A stretch of DNA of 64,000 nucleotides from contig JAPLCP010000079.1 in the NCBI GenBank assembly GCA_026392155.1, forward strand, positions 75,618 through 139,617, written 5' to 3'. The translations under genes were made by a program, and so were the position numbers. This DNA is from Armatimonadota bacterium. Its GTDB lineage: Bacteria; Armatimonadota; Armatimonadia; Armatimonadales; Armatimonadaceae. Of the stretch, positions 11,358-18,902 are shown piece after piece. The notes beneath the pieces were generated by a model, which ran no database searches, was not told the origin of the DNA, and saw nothing but the letters and a program-made list of their open reading frames with translations. How positions within the stretch are numbered: position 1 is the first letter of the stretch; every line of letters starts with the position of its first letter.

Positions 11358-12377
11358 ATGGCGGCAGCCATAGAAATTAAAAACCTAACCAAACAGTACC
11401 CGGTTCCGATGAAGCGCGAGGTCGTCAACGCCGTTGACAACCTCTCCGTCACCATTGGAGAAGGCGAAGTCTTTGGCTTCCTGGGCGCAAACGGCGCAGG
11501 AAAGACCACCACCATCAAGATCCTGCTTGGCCTTATCTATGCCACGCAGGGCGAGGCCTATGTGCTCGGCAAGCCCGCGGGGGACATCGAGGCAAAACAC
11601 AAAGTGGCGTACTTGCCGGAGTCTCCATACTTCTACGAGCACATGACCGCCCGTGAGATCGTGACCTTTTACGCACAGCTCTTTGGCATGAAGCTCGAAG
11701 ACGCGAAGAAAAAAGCCGATGAGCTCGTGGACTTTGTGGGTCTTGGGGGAAAGAGCGATGTCAATAAGCGCGTCGCCGAGTTCTCCAAGGGAATGCGACA
11801 GCGTGTCGGGATTGCCCAGAGCCTGATCAACGACCCGGACTTGCTCTTTTACGACGAGCCGACCTCGGGCCTCGATGCCATTGCACGTCGCGATATCCGT
11901 GACCTCATGCTAGAGCTCAAGCGCCAGGGCAAGACCATGTTTCTTTCCAGCCACCAGCTCGAAGATGTCGAGATGGTCTGTGGCCGCGCCTCGATTATCC
12001 ACAAGGGCAAGCTCCAGGTGATCGGCACCATGGACGAGCTCCTTGGGGGCGAGCGCGTGGAAGTGACCGTCGTCAAGCCATCTGTGGAGCTTGCAGGCAA
12101 GCTGAGCGGCATGGAGAGTAGCGAGTTTGATGGCAAGCTCACCGTTACCGTCGCCAACACCGATGTCGGTGGACTTCTCGATGCCATCCGTGGTGCCAAG
12201 GGTGATGTCTTCTCCGTGGTTCCTAAGAAGCGCCGCCTAGAGGATATCTTCGTCGAGATCGTCGGGGAGCGCATTGACTCGGCGACGGGTAGCCTTGCCT
12301 CTACCGGCGACCGCCCGCTCGATGGGGGTGAGTCAAAGCCGACCGCCAATAAATACAAGGACTTGATGGACAAATAA
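11358..12377 (+). CDS. ABC transporter ATP-binding protein
   Basis: A 339-residue ATPase of the multidrug/Nos-type ABC-2 exporter class. Walker A is GANGAGKTTT, the signature is EFSKGMRQRVG, Walker B is LLFYDEPTSGLD and the switch His is in SSHQLEDVE. A C-terminal extension of about 110 residues follows the nucleotide-binding domain, as in many ABC-2 ATPases. The ATG has AAGGAG 7 nt upstream. The stop TAA overlaps the permease ATG region (AAATAAATG), so the pair is coupled. The 176-bp gap upstream is the likely promoter region, but I see no convincing -35/-10 pair. Substrate is unknown. Confidence 0.93.
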   Translation: MAAAIEIKNLTKQYPVPMKREVVNAVDNLSVTIGEGEVFGFLGANGAGKTTTIKILLGLIYATQGEAYVLGKPAGDIEAKHKVAYLPESPYFYEHMTAREIVTFYAQLFGMKLEDAKKKADELVDFVGLGGKSDVNKRVAEFSKGMRQRVGIAQSLINDPDLLFYDEPTSGLDAIARRDIRDLMLELKRQGKTMFLSSHQLEDVEMVCGRASIIHKGKLQVIGTMDELLGGERVEVTVVKPSVELAGKLSGMESSEFDGKLTVTVANTDVGGLLDAIRGAKGDVFSVVPKKRRLEDIFVEIVGERIDSATGSLASTGDRPLDGGESKPTANKYKDLMDK

Positions 12378-13163
12378 ATGAATACCGCAATCGTTATCGC
12401 TCGCAACACCATCAGCGAAGCTCTGCGCAAGAAAGTGCTCAATGCCTTTCTCATGGTCGGATTTGCCATGCTCGTGCTGACCTTTGCCTTCCAGCAGTTT
12501 GCTCCGCGTCAGGAGCTAACTCTGGTTAAGGGAATGGGCCTAGGAATTATCTCCATGGCCGCCCTGCTCATCACCGTGATCCTCTCCATCAACCTCGTCC
12601 CCACCGAGATTGAGCGGCGCACGATCTACACCATCCTCTCCAAGCCCGTGCGTCGCCATGAGTTTTTGCTGGGCAAGTACTTCGGTGCTGCCAGCACGAT
12701 CTTTATCAATGTCGGCCTGATGGGACTTGCCTTTGTGCTGGCGATTATCCTCAAGCAACGTGGCGTGGACATGGGAAGCTCGCTCAACATGCTGAAGGGT
12801 GTCTGGATGATCTACTGCCAGATGGCACTTCTCAGCGCCGTGGCGATCTTCTTCTCGACATTCCTCTCGCCGCTGGTAAACTTCTTCCTGACCTTCTCTC
12901 TGTTTATCGTGGGGAACCTCTCCAGCTTCACGCTGGATCTGGCCAAGAACACGCAGAATGTCCTAGCGAAGGGATTCTTTACCATTGTCCACTACCTGGT
13001 ACCGAACTTTGGCAACTTCAACTACACCAACCCCCTGGTGCAGGCCAATGTGCAAGTGAAGTCCGAAGCCGCTCTTCTCACCCAGAATACGATCTACGCC
13101 CTGGTGTATGCCACGGTGCTGCTGATCATCTCCATTCTGGTCTTTGACCGACGCGAGGTGTGA
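12378..13163 (+). CDS. ABC-2 type permease
   Basis: A 261-residue membrane protein with six hydrophobic segments, including VLNAFLMVGFAMLVLTFAFQ, IISMAALLITVILSINLVPT, TIFINVGLMGLAFVLAIILK and IYALVYATVLLIISILVF. The segment PTEIERRTIYTILSKPVRRH is typical of NosY-like ABC-2 permeases that pair with the ATPase encoded just upstream. It would form the transmembrane half of the exporter as a dimer. Its TGA overlaps the next start (GTGTGATGATG). Confidence 0.88.
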   Translation: MNTAIVIARNTISEALRKKVLNAFLMVGFAMLVLTFAFQQFAPRQELTLVKGMGLGIISMAALLITVILSINLVPTEIERRTIYTILSKPVRRHEFLLGKYFGAASTIFINVGLMGLAFVLAIILKQRGVDMGSSLNMLKGVWMIYCQMALLSAVAIFFSTFLSPLVNFFLTFSLFIVGNLSSFTLDLAKNTQNVLAKGFFTIVHYLVPNFGNFNYTNPLVQANVQVKSEAALLTQNTIYALVYATVLLIISILVFDRREV

Positions 13164-14899
13164 TGATGAAAAATTTTCTCGATGCCGTCCGGGGCAACCC
13201 CAAGCTGACCGCAGGGGCTCTCGCGCTGATCGCGGTTCAGGGGCTTCTCCAAGCACGAATTGACCCGCTACGCCGACAGCCCGCCGTCGAGCCGCCTTCG
13301 ATGTTTAAGACCACAGGAGGACTGCCTTTTGAGTATGCCCTCGCTGCGGTCTCGGGCTTCCGGCAGGTGATTGCGGGGCTCCTCTGGGTGCGTGCCGACT
13401 CGTTCTTCCACTCGGGGAACTACGACGCGATTCTGCCGCTCCTGCGCCTGATTACCTGGCTTGATCCCAACTGGCTGGATGTTTATTCCACAGGTGCCTG
13501 GCACCTGATGTATAACTTCACCGATACCGACCAGCGCTCGGATCGCCGCTACCTGCCCGTTGGTATCGCGCTTCTCAATGAGGGAATCGAGGCCAACAGT
13601 ACGGTCTTCGACCTCTACAAAGAGAAGGGCTGGAATCTCTTCGATAAAGTCAAGGACTACGACGAGTCGGTGAAGGCGTATCAGCAAGCGCGCGACAACG
13701 ATCCCGCCCATGACATCAACATGGTAGAGCACTTGCTGGCCCATGCCACAGAGCGCTCTGGGAACCCAGAAGCGGCGATCAAGGCGTGGGAAGACGCGAT
13801 GGCGGCCCATAAGCAACGCATCGATGCTGCCAAGGGTACCCCGACAGAGGCCGATGCCCTCTCCCGCAATACCTCGGGTTTGAACAACGCCACCAAGAAC
13901 CGCCGCATGGTCAGTGTGCGTAGCTACTGCCGCCCACGGGACATTGCGCGCCTTGGCCAAGTGGATACCAACATGTCCTTCAAAGTCACCCGCGTTCGCC
14001 CCCGCGTGATTCGTGTGGAAGGGACATGGAACCTGATCGGCTGTCTGAAGGATCAGTACGATGATCTGAGCTTCGATGATCAGGGCAACCCCAAAGCAGC
14101 CAATATCTCCAGCGGAATCGTGATGGATGGCCCGGTAGATGGAGCACGCATTGACGTGCGACTCCATGATGCAGGCTACACCATGCCCTCTCCAAAGGAG
14201 TTTAGCTTTGAGGTTCCCGACACGCTGACGATCATGCAAGACGCGATCAACTCTCGTGGAGGAAAAAAGACGCTCAAGGGTAGCCTCTACGCGATCAATC
14301 CAACGGCGGCTACGGATCCTAATCAGGAGCGAGCGGGAGTCTATTCCTACAAAGACGATGGAAGCGCCCCGAAAGGCGTGCCCATTGTACAGGCACTGGC
14401 CGCCGGACAGCTCTCACCACTCGGGCAGCTCCAGCTAGCGACTCTGGTCGTTCCGCCCATGATGCGCAAGAAGAAGTTCTACACGCAGGAAGATGTCCCC
14501 GGGATCATCCGTGAGATCAAGGCCGATGCGTCTAAACTGAAGGGGCTCACGGATCGCAAGTTCTACGTGGCTCTGGAAGACAAGATGATGCCTAGTGAGT
14601 TTGGGCAAAAGCGCGAGATAGACATGAGCAAAGACCCGAAGATGTACAGCTTCAAGGCCGATGCCTATGACCTGACTCTCGGGTTCAACCCGCGCATCGC
14701 TCCGGACTTTGTTCAGGATCGCCTCGGCTGGAACGGTGAAGGCATGACAGACAAGCGCTACTTAAGAACGGACATCAAGCCCGGACTTCAGATGCTCTGG
14801 CTTAAGCTTAAGCTCACCCGTGACGATCTCGTTGGCGCGGATAGCAAGGTTCTTTTTGATGATAGCAAGGGGATTGGACTGGATAAGATCCAGAAATAA
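13163..14899 (+). CDS. large TPR-containing envelope protein of the ABC operon
   Basis: A protein of about 578 residues. One N-terminal hydrophobic stretch (LTAGALALIAVQGLLQARI) suggests a membrane anchor or signal. Residues 70-250 have TPR-like helices, e.g. VFDLYKEKGWNLFDKVKDYD and NPEAAIKAWEDAMAAH. The C-terminal half is beta-rich and I do not recognise it. It overlaps the permease stop by one base (TGATG), so it probably acts with the exporter. The ORF track starts one codon earlier at GTG 13160. A strong terminator follows the stop. Confidence 0.65.
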   Translation: MMKNFLDAVRGNPKLTAGALALIAVQGLLQARIDPLRRQPAVEPPSMFKTTGGLPFEYALAAVSGFRQVIAGLLWVRADSFFHSGNYDAILPLLRLITWLDPNWLDVYSTGAWHLMYNFTDTDQRSDRRYLPVGIALLNEGIEANSTVFDLYKEKGWNLFDKVKDYDESVKAYQQARDNDPAHDINMVEHLLAHATERSGNPEAAIKAWEDAMAAHKQRIDAAKGTPTEADALSRNTSGLNNATKNRRMVSVRSYCRPRDIARLGQVDTNMSFKVTRVRPRVIRVEGTWNLIGCLKDQYDDLSFDDQGNPKAANISSGIVMDGPVDGARIDVRLHDAGYTMPSPKEFSFEVPDTLTIMQDAINSRGGKKTLKGSLYAINPTAATDPNQERAGVYSYKDDGSAPKGVPIVQALAAGQLSPLGQLQLATLVVPPMMRKKKFYTQEDVPGIIREIKADASKLKGLTDRKFYVALEDKMMPSEFGQKREIDMSKDPKMYSFKADAYDLTLGFNPRIAPDFVQDRLGWNGEGMTDKRYLRTDIKPGLQMLWLKLKLTRDDLVGADSKVLFDDSKGIGLDKIQK

Positions 14900-14908
14900 T
14901 CCCACTCT

Positions 14909-17611
14909 CTATGCCCCGGAAGACTGGCTTGCCTGTCTTCCGGGGCTTTTTGTTTTTGGTGAGACTTCCGGGCTGTCCCAAGCAACCGTACCATCGTCGT
15001 ACCAAGTGGTTGCCAGAAGCGTCGGAACCGTCCCCTCCGTGGCAAGTGTCAAGCCACAGCGCACCGCGAAGCGCTCCACAAACGCACGAACGCGCTTGAC
15101 GATCGCCAAACGAATATTGGGGTCATCCACGGTACTGTAGAGGTGAAAGCCTACCAGGCCATCCTCTATCGTCAGCGCCAGGAGCTGACGTGCGACGATC
15201 CTCCCTTTTCCATCACGCCCGTAGAGCACCCGTTTATTGGCATCGGATGCATTGGCAACAGTCGAGTAGGAGTTGCAGCCTCCGAAGCTCAGGCAGGTGT
15301 CGAAGTAGTTTCCCATCTGGAGTACAGCCAGCGGATCGGTCTCTAGCTGTAGCTGAAGCCAGCCATCGGCTAGCTCGTCGCAGCACAGGCGCTCCTGCCA
15401 GTCACTTTGCCATGCCACACTGTCTACTCCACGCTCTTCTAGGGCTTGCAGAAACTCCCGATTTGCTTTCTGGCGGAGAGCCCAGCGGGTATCGCCATCA
15501 CAGTAAGCCCGTAGCAGTCGAATCAAGAGCCGACGGTTTGGCTCAATATCCAGACTCAGGAGTACCGCGTTCATGATGTCGGGTGTCATCTCTACGGAGA
15601 GGGCACGGCTTCCAATGAGCCCCTGGAGACGGGCACGATAGACCTCCTGAATGGCAGCTTCCAGCGCCGCAAACCGCAGCTTTTGTGCTTGCTCGGCGAC
15701 GCAGGCCTGAAGCTCCGCCACTACCTGAGTCCGCAGATGCTCAGGCTGAGCCAGGCGCGCCTGTAGGTTTGCTAACCGTGCTCGGGCGCGGTCAGGATGG
15801 CGAGCCAGAAACGCCGCCTCACGCTGCAGACGCTCGGGGAGCGACAGGGCACGCTTCATCCCTGGTGTGACGGGTTGCAAGGCGCACCAGAGCACGTCCG
15901 AATTTTCCGGGAGGAGCGCCTCAATCTCGGTCCATTCCTCGGAATAGGGCACGGAAAGGGGCTGTAGCGTCTGGAGAGGCTGGAGGGCATCCAAACCAAG
16001 CCGTAGCGCCTCCCCAAGCTGTGCCATTTGCTCCATCGTCCGGCGGGGATGTTTGAGAAGCTGCTCCGAGAGTATGGGACGAAGCTCGGGAAACCGGGGA
16101 AGCTCCTTACAGAACCGCTCGGCGGAGTGAAAGGGAAGCCAGTCGAGTTCCAGCGGAAGCACCTCCTCATAGAGCTTGTGGAAGAGAGCTTCATCGTCCC
16201 CCGCAAGTGCGATAGCGACAGGCAGCCGTGACATTCTTGAGGAGGCCGTGAGTCGTGCCACGAGTCCTGGAAGCCAGCCTAGAGGAACCGTCGGTAAGAT
16301 CGAGAACAGCTCACGCCAATCCCAAGAGTCCCAGTCTTCCTGAGACGTGAGTGGGACGAGCAGTGCAAGCTTGGGGGCTAGCCGTACAAGCTGACGGCGA
16401 TCCTCACGCGAGCCGCTGTGTGCCGAGCTAGCAATCGCATCAAAAAACGCTTCCCTTGCCACGATCGGCAAGGTTCGTAGGACACGCAGAAGCTCGCCAA
16501 AGTCACTCCGGAACTCACGGACAGAGCGATAGTTTTGGAAGACTCCTGCAAGAGTGGTGTCGGTGCGGCGAAACTCTTTCTGGAGAGCCCAGAGGAGCGG
16601 ATAGAGCGCTGGGTCGGGCACGGAAACAGACACCGCAGCTAGGCTATTGGCCCGCAAGACGTCCTCCGCGAGCGCAAAGCTCTGCGAGTGCATCACGAGA
16701 TTGTGGAGGCGCTCCACAGTCAGGTGTTTATGGGCACGCCACTTCTGTGCCTTCTCCAGAAGCGCCGTCTCGCGTCGGGCTCCTGTCAGACGCTTCTTGA
16801 CCATCAGCTCTGGCACAGGCCAGAGCAAGGCGATGTTGCGCTCCAGAAGCTCTAGCCACCCGGCGCGGCTGTCGAGCGCGAGGATCGGAGCAAGAGCCTC
16901 GTCCATGCCGGGAGTCTCTAACATTCGAAAGGCGCGTACCAAACGTAGTGCTGGAGGCAGGCTCTCCAGGGGGAGTGCGCTCCAGTCCACTCCACCACAG
17001 GCGAAAGCCTTCAAGGCCACCACGGAGTCCAGTAGTTGAAGGAGCCTTTCGGGCGGCATCCCTTGACGAACGGCACGGCGCAGAGACTGCGGTGTGAGAG
17101 TAAAGAGTGGGAGTGCTTGCAGGGAGGGAGCGTCGTGCCCCAAGCGTGCCACCAGATCGGGGTGGCGGGGAAGTGGCATGCCTTGTTGACAGACCTGTTT
17201 CACCAGTGCCAGCAAAGGACGAGCCTCCTCCGGGAGAAGCGAGTCTTGTTCCTGTGCCTGAAGCTGAGGCAGCGCTGCCTTCCCCTGTTGCGCCAACAGC
17301 GCACTCGGGGAGAACGGAAGCTCATTTTCGCAGAGCGCCTCGATCACTAGCCAGTCCGCAAGGTCTGTGGGGGTGAGGCTGAGCCAGCGCTTTGCCCGCT
17401 CTAGCTGCTGCTGTAAAAGATCAACGCCGCGTAGCTCATAGAGCCGCTTTTGAGTCTTCCAAAGGAGCTCCGCATCGGGAATCGTCCCCCCCCACGTCAA
17501 GCAGCCCTCTGTCTCAGACCAAGACAGCGGCGCGTCCAGCCACGCTACCTGTGCCAGCAGGACTTTCTCGCCTAGGTGAGCCCGTTTTTGTTCTCTTCGT
17601 CGAATAGCCAC
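14909..17611 (-). CDS. 900-residue protein of unknown function with conserved C-terminal domain
   Basis: Starts at GTG (MAIRRREQKRAHLG) and is mostly alpha-helical and Leu-rich, without signal peptide or membrane helices. The C-terminal 130 residues look like a folded conserved domain: DPLAVLQMGNYFDTCLSFGG, CNSYSTVANASDANKRVLYG, RDGKGRIVARQLLALTIEDG and TWYDDGTVAWD. I recall similar C-termini in large uncharacterised bacterial proteins, sometimes loosely like PcfJ, but cannot name a function. The last residues (KTKSPGRQASQSSGA) are encoded by the inverted repeat that terminates the opposing ABC operon. It stands alone between two plus-strand genes. Confidence 0.7.
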   Translation of the reverse strand: MAIRRREQKRAHLGEKVLLAQVAWLDAPLSWSETEGCLTWGGTIPDAELLWKTQKRLYELRGVDLLQQQLERAKRWLSLTPTDLADWLVIEALCENELPFSPSALLAQQGKAALPQLQAQEQDSLLPEEARPLLALVKQVCQQGMPLPRHPDLVARLGHDAPSLQALPLFTLTPQSLRRAVRQGMPPERLLQLLDSVVALKAFACGGVDWSALPLESLPPALRLVRAFRMLETPGMDEALAPILALDSRAGWLELLERNIALLWPVPELMVKKRLTGARRETALLEKAQKWRAHKHLTVERLHNLVMHSQSFALAEDVLRANSLAAVSVSVPDPALYPLLWALQKEFRRTDTTLAGVFQNYRSVREFRSDFGELLRVLRTLPIVAREAFFDAIASSAHSGSREDRRQLVRLAPKLALLVPLTSQEDWDSWDWRELFSILPTVPLGWLPGLVARLTASSRMSRLPVAIALAGDDEALFHKLYEEVLPLELDWLPFHSAERFCKELPRFPELRPILSEQLLKHPRRTMEQMAQLGEALRLGLDALQPLQTLQPLSVPYSEEWTEIEALLPENSDVLWCALQPVTPGMKRALSLPERLQREAAFLARHPDRARARLANLQARLAQPEHLRTQVVAELQACVAEQAQKLRFAALEAAIQEVYRARLQGLIGSRALSVEMTPDIMNAVLLSLDIEPNRRLLIRLLRAYCDGDTRWALRQKANREFLQALEERGVDSVAWQSDWQERLCCDELADGWLQLQLETDPLAVLQMGNYFDTCLSFGGCNSYSTVANASDANKRVLYGRDGKGRIVARQLLALTIEDGLVGFHLYSTVDDPNIRLAIVKRVRAFVERFAVRCGLTLATEGTVPTLLATTWYDDGTVAWDSPEVSPKTKSPGRQASQSSGA
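14913..14957 (+). terminator. rho-independent terminator of the ABC/TPR operon
   Basis: GCCCCGGAAGAC and GTCTTCCGGGGC make a perfect 12-bp stem with a 10-nt loop, followed by TTTTTGTTTTT. It lies 13 bp after the TPR gene stop and within the 3' end of the convergent 900-residue gene. Confidence 0.93.
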
Positions 17612-17702: not shown

Positions 17703-18902
17703 ATGATACAGAAAAGTTCTTCGCTTGACTGGCCGCAGTGGCGCGGTCCTCTCCGTGACTCCCATGTTAGTGGTTTTAAGGCTCCGTCACGCTGGCCTGC
17801 TCAGCTCGGCAAAAAATGGTCTATCAATGTGGGAGAGGGACACTCTTCCCCCATTATCGTAGGAAATCGTGCCTTTGTGATCGTGCGGCAAGGCAACGAC
17901 GAGCACGTGCTCTGTCTGGACATGGCAACGGGAAAGACGCTCTGGAAAGATGTCGTGGCCGCGCCGTTCGATAGCGTTATTTTCCCGGCACAGCGCCTCG
18001 GAAAGTCCCCACGCTCCACACCTCTCTGGCACCAGGGAAAGCTCTACACCATCGGGGTCAATGGCCTGATGACGTGCTTTGATGCTACGAAAGGCAGCAT
18101 TCTCTGGCGCAAGGACTTCGCCAAGCAGTACCCGATCCCCATGCCGGTCTGCGGGGCCTCGCTCTCACCGCTGGTTGATGGCAAGAAGATCTATGTCCAC
18201 TCCGGCCACGAAGCCACGGGCTCGTTCTTGGCGCTGGATAAAGACACGGGAAAAGAGCTCTGGGCCTGGAAGGGCGAAGGGCCAGGCTACACGTCTCCGC
18301 AGCTCGCCACGATTGGTGGAGTCCGGCAGCTCATTACCGCCTCACACAACCTCTGGCTGGGACTTAGCCCCGAGAACGGGTCGGAGCTCTGGCGCTTGGC
18401 CAACCGCCAGAACATGTTCAACCACAACTCCATCACCCCCGTGATCGCGGGCGACACGGTGCTCTGTGGAGCGAATCAGCGGGCGACTTTCGCGCTCAAG
18501 CTCAGCCAGAGTGGGGGCAAGTGGGCAACGTCGAAGGTCTGGGAGTCGCGCGACGTGACCATGTCTTCTTCTAGTCCCGTGCTGGATGGCAAGCATGTCT
18601 ATGTGGTCAATGAGAAGCGGCGCGGGCAAGTGGCCGTGATGGACTTCGCCACCGGGAAAGTAACCTGGGAGTGCCCCGGCAACAAAGGCGAGCAAGTGAC
18701 GATCTTTGACATTGGCCCCTCCCTTCTCGTCTCGTCGCAGGGCGGCGAGCTGTTTGTCTACCAAAAAATGGGCGATACCCTTAAGGAAACTGCCAAGTAC
18801 GAAGTGGCGGATTCGGCCATGTGGTCAAGCCCGGCAATCTCGGGGAACCGCCTGCTCGTCAAAGGCGCGTCCACCCTGGCTCTTTGGGATATTCCCGCCT
18901 GA
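17703..18902 (+). CDS. PQQ-like beta-propeller repeat protein
   Basis: A 399-residue protein built of WD40-like PQQ/pyrrolo-quinoline repeats. The start DWPQWRGPLRDSHVSGF is the usual opening of this family. Blades show the pattern ATGKTLWKDVV, ATKGSILWRKDF, DTGKELWAWKG, NGSELWRLANR and ATGKVTWECPG. No signal peptide is visible, so it may be cytoplasmic or use a non-classical route. Such proteins scaffold assemblies (BamB-like) or bind quinone cofactor; the Trp/acid residues of true quinoprotein dehydrogenases are not evident, so I infer a scaffold. The ATG overlaps a TATGAT hexamer, so the real promoter is unclear. It ends before a terminator. Confidence 0.88.
   Translation: MIQKSSSLDWPQWRGPLRDSHVSGFKAPSRWPAQLGKKWSINVGEGHSSPIIVGNRAFVIVRQGNDEHVLCLDMATGKTLWKDVVAAPFDSVIFPAQRLGKSPRSTPLWHQGKLYTIGVNGLMTCFDATKGSILWRKDFAKQYPIPMPVCGASLSPLVDGKKIYVHSGHEATGSFLALDKDTGKELWAWKGEGPGYTSPQLATIGGVRQLITASHNLWLGLSPENGSELWRLANRQNMFNHNSITPVIAGDTVLCGANQRATFALKLSQSGGKWATSKVWESRDVTMSSSSPVLDGKHVYVVNEKRRGQVAVMDFATGKVTWECPGNKGEQVTIFDIGPSLLVSSQGGELFVYQKMGDTLKETAKYEVADSAMWSSPAISGNRLLVKGASTLALWDIPA

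Follow-up and report, generated by a model that had tools for sequence, protein, structure and literature searches.

How does a long gene that matches no recognised family, and that lies apart from its neighbours, come to encode a protein with a conserved-looking end? This question was raised by one locus in a DNA stretch of 64,000 nucleotides from an Armatimonadota bacterium, hereafter called the window. A preliminary description of the locus, made from the letters alone, had reported a helical protein of 900 residues with a C-terminal region that reads like a catalytic or binding fold, and had regarded it as a candidate for an undescribed function. Our analysis supports an orphan family that is worth naming, and the part of that proposal which concerns a new function is unproven.

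The gene and its surroundings in the window

A 900-codon open reading frame, with a GTG start and the stop codon included, was found exactly at 14,909–17,611. It is encoded on the minus strand, which the preliminary description had not given, and both peptides quoted there are present in it at about residues 770–789 and 793–812. That this frame is coding was shown by the full-size homologues present in other genomes and by the codon differences from the same-genus homologue, which peak at the third position (0.41/0.37/0.64). The gene does stand alone on its own strand as had been noticed, between two plus-strand genes. These are a TPR-like gene (13,160–14,899), which is convergent with it and has weak TPR matches, and a PQQ/beta-propeller gene (17,703–18,902), which is divergent from it and is followed by a gene for a DUF1559 pilin-like protein. 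The intrinsic terminator of the TPR-like gene (14,913–14,958, plus strand; −28.6 kcal/mol, z −6.1) consists of a hairpin at 14,913–14,946 and then a U-run, and it lies within the final codons of the orphan frame, which encode a low-confidence, disordered tail. The region spanning 11,358–14,899 on the plus strand carries an ABC transporter ATPase, an ABC-2-like permease (both assigned by eye) and the TPR-containing protein in succession, and looks like an ordinary operon. A recent foreign origin of the orphan gene was unsupported, its GC content by codon position being close to that of the neighbours.

Distribution and genomic context of the family

The searches of Pfam, NCBIfam, PHROGs, PADLOC and PDB sequences returned no credible match for the protein, as the preliminary description had supposed, and weak matches to Helicase_C_3 and T7 Gp5.9 were rejected as short and far below cut-off. 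The C-terminal domain was found in 49 proteins, the window's included, from five lineages, namely Armatimonadota, Planctomycetota, Myxococcota, Chloroflexota and Vampirovibrionia, where it is rare and scattered (about 1–10% of sampled genomes). A same-genus genome (G001) encodes a full-length homologue of 43–45% identity, and full-size relatives are present in five more genomes of the phylum. When 291 genomes of the phylum were searched with a profile, the domain was detected in 10, in three of them as short proteins of ~390–407 amino acids. Candidatus Obscuribacterales, Chloroflexaceae/Oscillochloris, a Myxococcales MAG and Planctomycetes CA13 came in through a scan of 84,980 species genomes, and the class-level searches around these additions found the domain in 3/158 (including one short fragment), 9/298, 9/194 and 24/241 genomes. 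A superfamily-widening profile seeded with the divergent ~390-residue forms recovered known members only, and the phage and plasmid records and viral contigs searched contained no relative and no match better than chance. The literature search on PcfJ and on the orphan protein returned nothing useful in the library searched. The preliminary description had named a match to a characterised family or a complete lack of homologues as findings that would count against it; homologues exist and no characterised family was reached by sequence, so neither came true. By sequence comparison, residues ~578–881 define an undescribed family.

In a maximum-likelihood tree of the 49 domain sequences, which has several long branches of unsure placement, the lineages mix within well-supported clades, such as one of seven Myxococcota and three Planctomycetota sequences (support 100/100) and another of Armatimonadota, Vampirovibrionia and one Myxococcota sequence (98/91). 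This mixing calls for gene transfer across phyla or else for an old duplication followed by loss. The domain is not always terminal, and in some proteins of Myxococcota and Planctomycetota it lies mid-protein with several hundred residues after it. A 2,322-residue frame in a small (1.8 Mb) Vampirovibrionia genome (locus L135, 6502–13467, minus strand), truncated by the contig end and without a Pfam match, has the domain at residues 775–1059. In genome G018, the N-terminal half (L011/L030) and the C-terminal half (L017) of a homologue were found at the ends of the short contigs C123 and C646, and are probably one gene split by the assembly.

The neighbourhood survey that had been suggested was run on 635 ORFs at the loci holding 51 homologue genes. 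It found no conserved operon around the homologues and no recurrent neighbour family beyond close relatives, generic kinases, response regulators and TPR-like proteins, and because ORF calls in GC-rich genomes are partly in the wrong frame, a weak association could have escaped this survey. When 109 neighbours were scanned with PADLOC and Pfam, they proved to be ordinary chromosomal genes. Among the 25 commonest of the 44 PADLOC models that matched, only kinase-type models were seen, consistent with ordinary Ser/Thr kinases; neither this set nor the PADLOC search with the family itself pointed to a defence context. A few associations were confined to single loci or pairs of loci. A gene for a KptA/Tpt1 RNA 2′-phosphotransferase was observed close downstream of the homologue in two Chloroflexota loci only (L033, 3507–4169; L036, 7609–8217). 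A ThiF gene lies near only one Armatimonadota copy, where two proteins of 534 and 313 amino acids without a credible Pfam family and the ThiF-family protein are encoded on the same strand (L035, 9858–13095) in a row that is operon-like.

Domain organisation, conserved residues and predicted fold

The protein was confirmed to be mainly helical outside its C-terminal domain, and could be divided into four segments, all encoded on the minus strand. The N-terminal module (residues 1–160; 17,132–17,611) is conserved at the subfamily level in Armatimonadota, Chloroflexota and Vampirovibrionia. It matches held-out Vampirovibrionia homologues (L107–L109) with E values of 1e-27 to 1e-35, and its residues 20–150 were modelled by AlphaFold2 with pLDDT mostly of 79–93. 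The middle (residues 161–577; 15,881–17,131) is helical and fast-evolving, and its model is mostly of low confidence. The conserved domain follows, with a helical first half (residues 578–738; 15,398–15,880) recognised from the AlphaFold2 model and the alignment, and an alpha/beta second half (residues 739–881; 14,969–15,397) with a predicted GNAT-like topology. The identity to the same-genus orthologue was found to be 57% for residues 1–160, 35% for 161–577, 52% for 578–740 and 58% for 741–881. When the window was compared with G001, two genes on one flank were 88.5% and 88.8% identical, and the apparently syntenic genes compared spanned 43–98%, the orphan protein being the lowest and another one having 46%.

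The conserved look of the C-terminus proved to reflect a true alpha/beta domain, in which some polar residues are invariant across the 49 proteins of five lineages. G767 and C773 (G767-x5-C773; C773 codon at 15,293–15,295) and R808 (15,188–15,190) are present in all 49 sequences, Y825 (15,137–15,139) in 48, L774, N792 and V795 in 46 each, and K793 in 44 (N792-K793 codons at 15,233–15,238). The WYDD motif of residues 870–873 (14,990–15,001) ends in D873, which is found in 46/46 rows reaching that position. To judge from the alignment, the retention of G767, C773 and R808 without exception, and of Y825 in 48/49 sequences, exceeds what structure by itself usually calls for.

The domain was modelled by AlphaFold2 together with 10 homologues, with a pLDDT of 92.1 and a pTM of 0.79. 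The model has helices, then b, b1, a1, a2, b2, b3, b4, a3 and a short b5. The GNAT fold runs b1-a1-a2-b2-b3-b4-a3-b5, and the order of strands and helices in the model is the same. Judged by its strand pairing, this model should place R808 on b3 next to Y825 on b4 on one face of the sheet. The structural search proposed in the preliminary description was done with this model using Foldseek, and GNAT-fold proteins were found throughout the 50 PDB matches listed, including NatD, GCN5/PCAF, GNA1, FemX and an aminoglycoside acetyltransferase; the full-length model, poor in its middle, matched the same GNATs. The best E value was 0.02 and the probability reached 0.99, and since the TM-scores did not exceed ~0.6, the resemblance to GNATs is a similarity and not a proof. 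When viral models were searched, PcfJ-like proteins took ranks 3, 6, 7, 8, 12, 16 and 36, and the other matches included acetyltransferases. The CoA pyrophosphate motif [Q/R]xxGx[G/A] expected between b4 and a3 was present in 0/49 family sequences. These findings suggested that the domain probably sits on a known kind of fold. The catalytic or binding fold read from the letters thus gained a confidently predicted GNAT-like topology, while catalysis itself remains at the level of inference.

Possible roles of the protein and comparison with known systems

We tentatively favour a solitary scaffold protein, in which the helical body would bind a partner for the head, the head having a GNAT/PcfJ-like fold and a putative Cys-Arg-Tyr site for group transfer. 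The conserved N-terminal module, the variable helical middle, the conserved C-terminal head and the solitary gene are the observed parts of this reading. The head is predicted to be a divergent GNAT-like (PcfJ-like) fold with near-invariant C773, N792/K793, R808, Y825 and D873. The helical body would capture a macromolecule that varies from host to host, and the head would act on this captured partner or else on some small bound ligand. The Cys-Arg-Tyr set is its putative active site, and its chemistry would most plausibly be group transfer without the classical acetyl-CoA pyrophosphate loop. This scaffold reading is supported by the full retention of G767, C773 and R808 and that of Y825 in 48/49 sequences, by the GNAT order of the confident domain model, the predicted adjacency of R808 and Y825 and the GNAT and PcfJ-like fold matches, and by the identity of 57–58% at the ends of the protein against 35% in its middle, the genes on one side of it being 88–89% identical. 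The Foldseek E value of only ~0.02, the low TM-scores and the missing GNAT cofactor motif speak against it. As no conserved partner gene was found, the protein would work alone or with host housekeeping factors, and because the helical middle is modelled poorly, the partner-binding surface is a guess.

The readings that compete with this scaffold-and-transferase proposal are not all mutually exclusive with it. The domain could be a non-catalytic binding module on the GNAT/PcfJ-like fold, its invariant residues keeping the structure or binding a ligand or nucleic acid, and the whole protein a scaffold or sensor. GNAT-like folds can lose catalysis, and the lack of the CoA motif, of conserved enzyme partners and of an operon agrees with this possibility, which we consider somewhat doubtful since the invariant Cys, Arg, Tyr and Asp over five lineages resemble an active site. 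If the protein were a classical GNAT acetyltransferase that uses acetyl-CoA and is joined to a helical scaffold, the GNATs among the PDB matches listed would be explained, but the pyrophosphate loop is missing from every sequence, the b4-a3 loop varies in length and no Pfam GNAT model matches, which leaves this reading very improbable. The patchy presence of the family, the mixed phyla in its tree and its fast-evolving middle would also suit a protein of anti-phage defence or of another conflict system, in which the variable body serves recognition and the conserved head is the effector. The PADLOC results for the family and its neighbours, the lack of conserved partner genes and the want of phage, plasmid or viral-contig relatives in the records searched argue against such a role, and we regard it as improbable.

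A place for the protein within the PcfJ family, as a divergent member on the chromosome that does whatever PcfJ does on mobile elements, appears unlikely on balance. PcfJ (PF14284) is carried on plasmids, integrative elements and phages, and we know of no function for it. This lead arose from a sequence pattern before the viral fold search was made, and was then followed by gathering proteins with PF14284 from the same phylum and aligning them. It is favoured by the seven PcfJ-like entries in the top 36 of the viral fold search, by the shared pattern and architecture compared below, and by the G and C of both families falling in register under a forced global alignment. The local hhalign comparison was not significant with either the first alignment or the enlarged one, which set 48 sequences against 12 (probability 1.1% or less, P about 0.05). 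PF14284 detects true PcfJ proteins in 9/151 genomes of the phylum, and it gave no match in the window's genome or in any of 17 family members. Two true PcfJ-family proteins were observed in the same-genus genome G001 (L042, 1399–2922, minus strand; L049, 403–1872, plus strand) and none in the window's genome. The orphan domain may thus fold or work like PcfJ, but with a non-significant profile comparison and none of the remaining PcfJ motifs its membership is unproven.

The family, which has no entry in Pfam, NCBIfam, PHROGs or PADLOC, can now be described by its predicted fold, its domain map and a set of invariant residues. The results also suggest a structural link to PcfJ that can be tested, PcfJ being a name given on many mobile elements, and if this link is real, one structure or activity would inform both families. 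It is conceivable, though unlikely, that the domain and PcfJ together found a superfamily whose members are cysteine-dependent transferases with a GNAT-like fold, working as solitary scaffold-effectors in several phyla with an undescribed chemistry.

Among the known systems, the GNAT-fold acyltransferases and their relatives (GCN5/PCAF, NatD, FemX) resemble the orphan domain in the order and type of secondary structure and provided its best PDB fold matches. The orphan family differs from them in having no CoA pyrophosphate loop (49 sequences) and no sequence similarity, and in possessing an invariant Cys and a large helical scaffold. In the comparison with PcfJ, the I-x-S, T-x-E-V and Q-x-x-G-x-x-N motifs were absent from the orphan alignment, in which TCL-x2-GG, N-K, R and Y stand in place of the HCV..Y, T-x-E-V and Q-x-x-G-x-x-N of PcfJ. 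A pattern common to the two families is L-x2/3-G-x5-C-[LV], followed by three strands and a helix (b-b-b-a), and in both a large helical N-terminus precedes the C-terminal alpha/beta domain.
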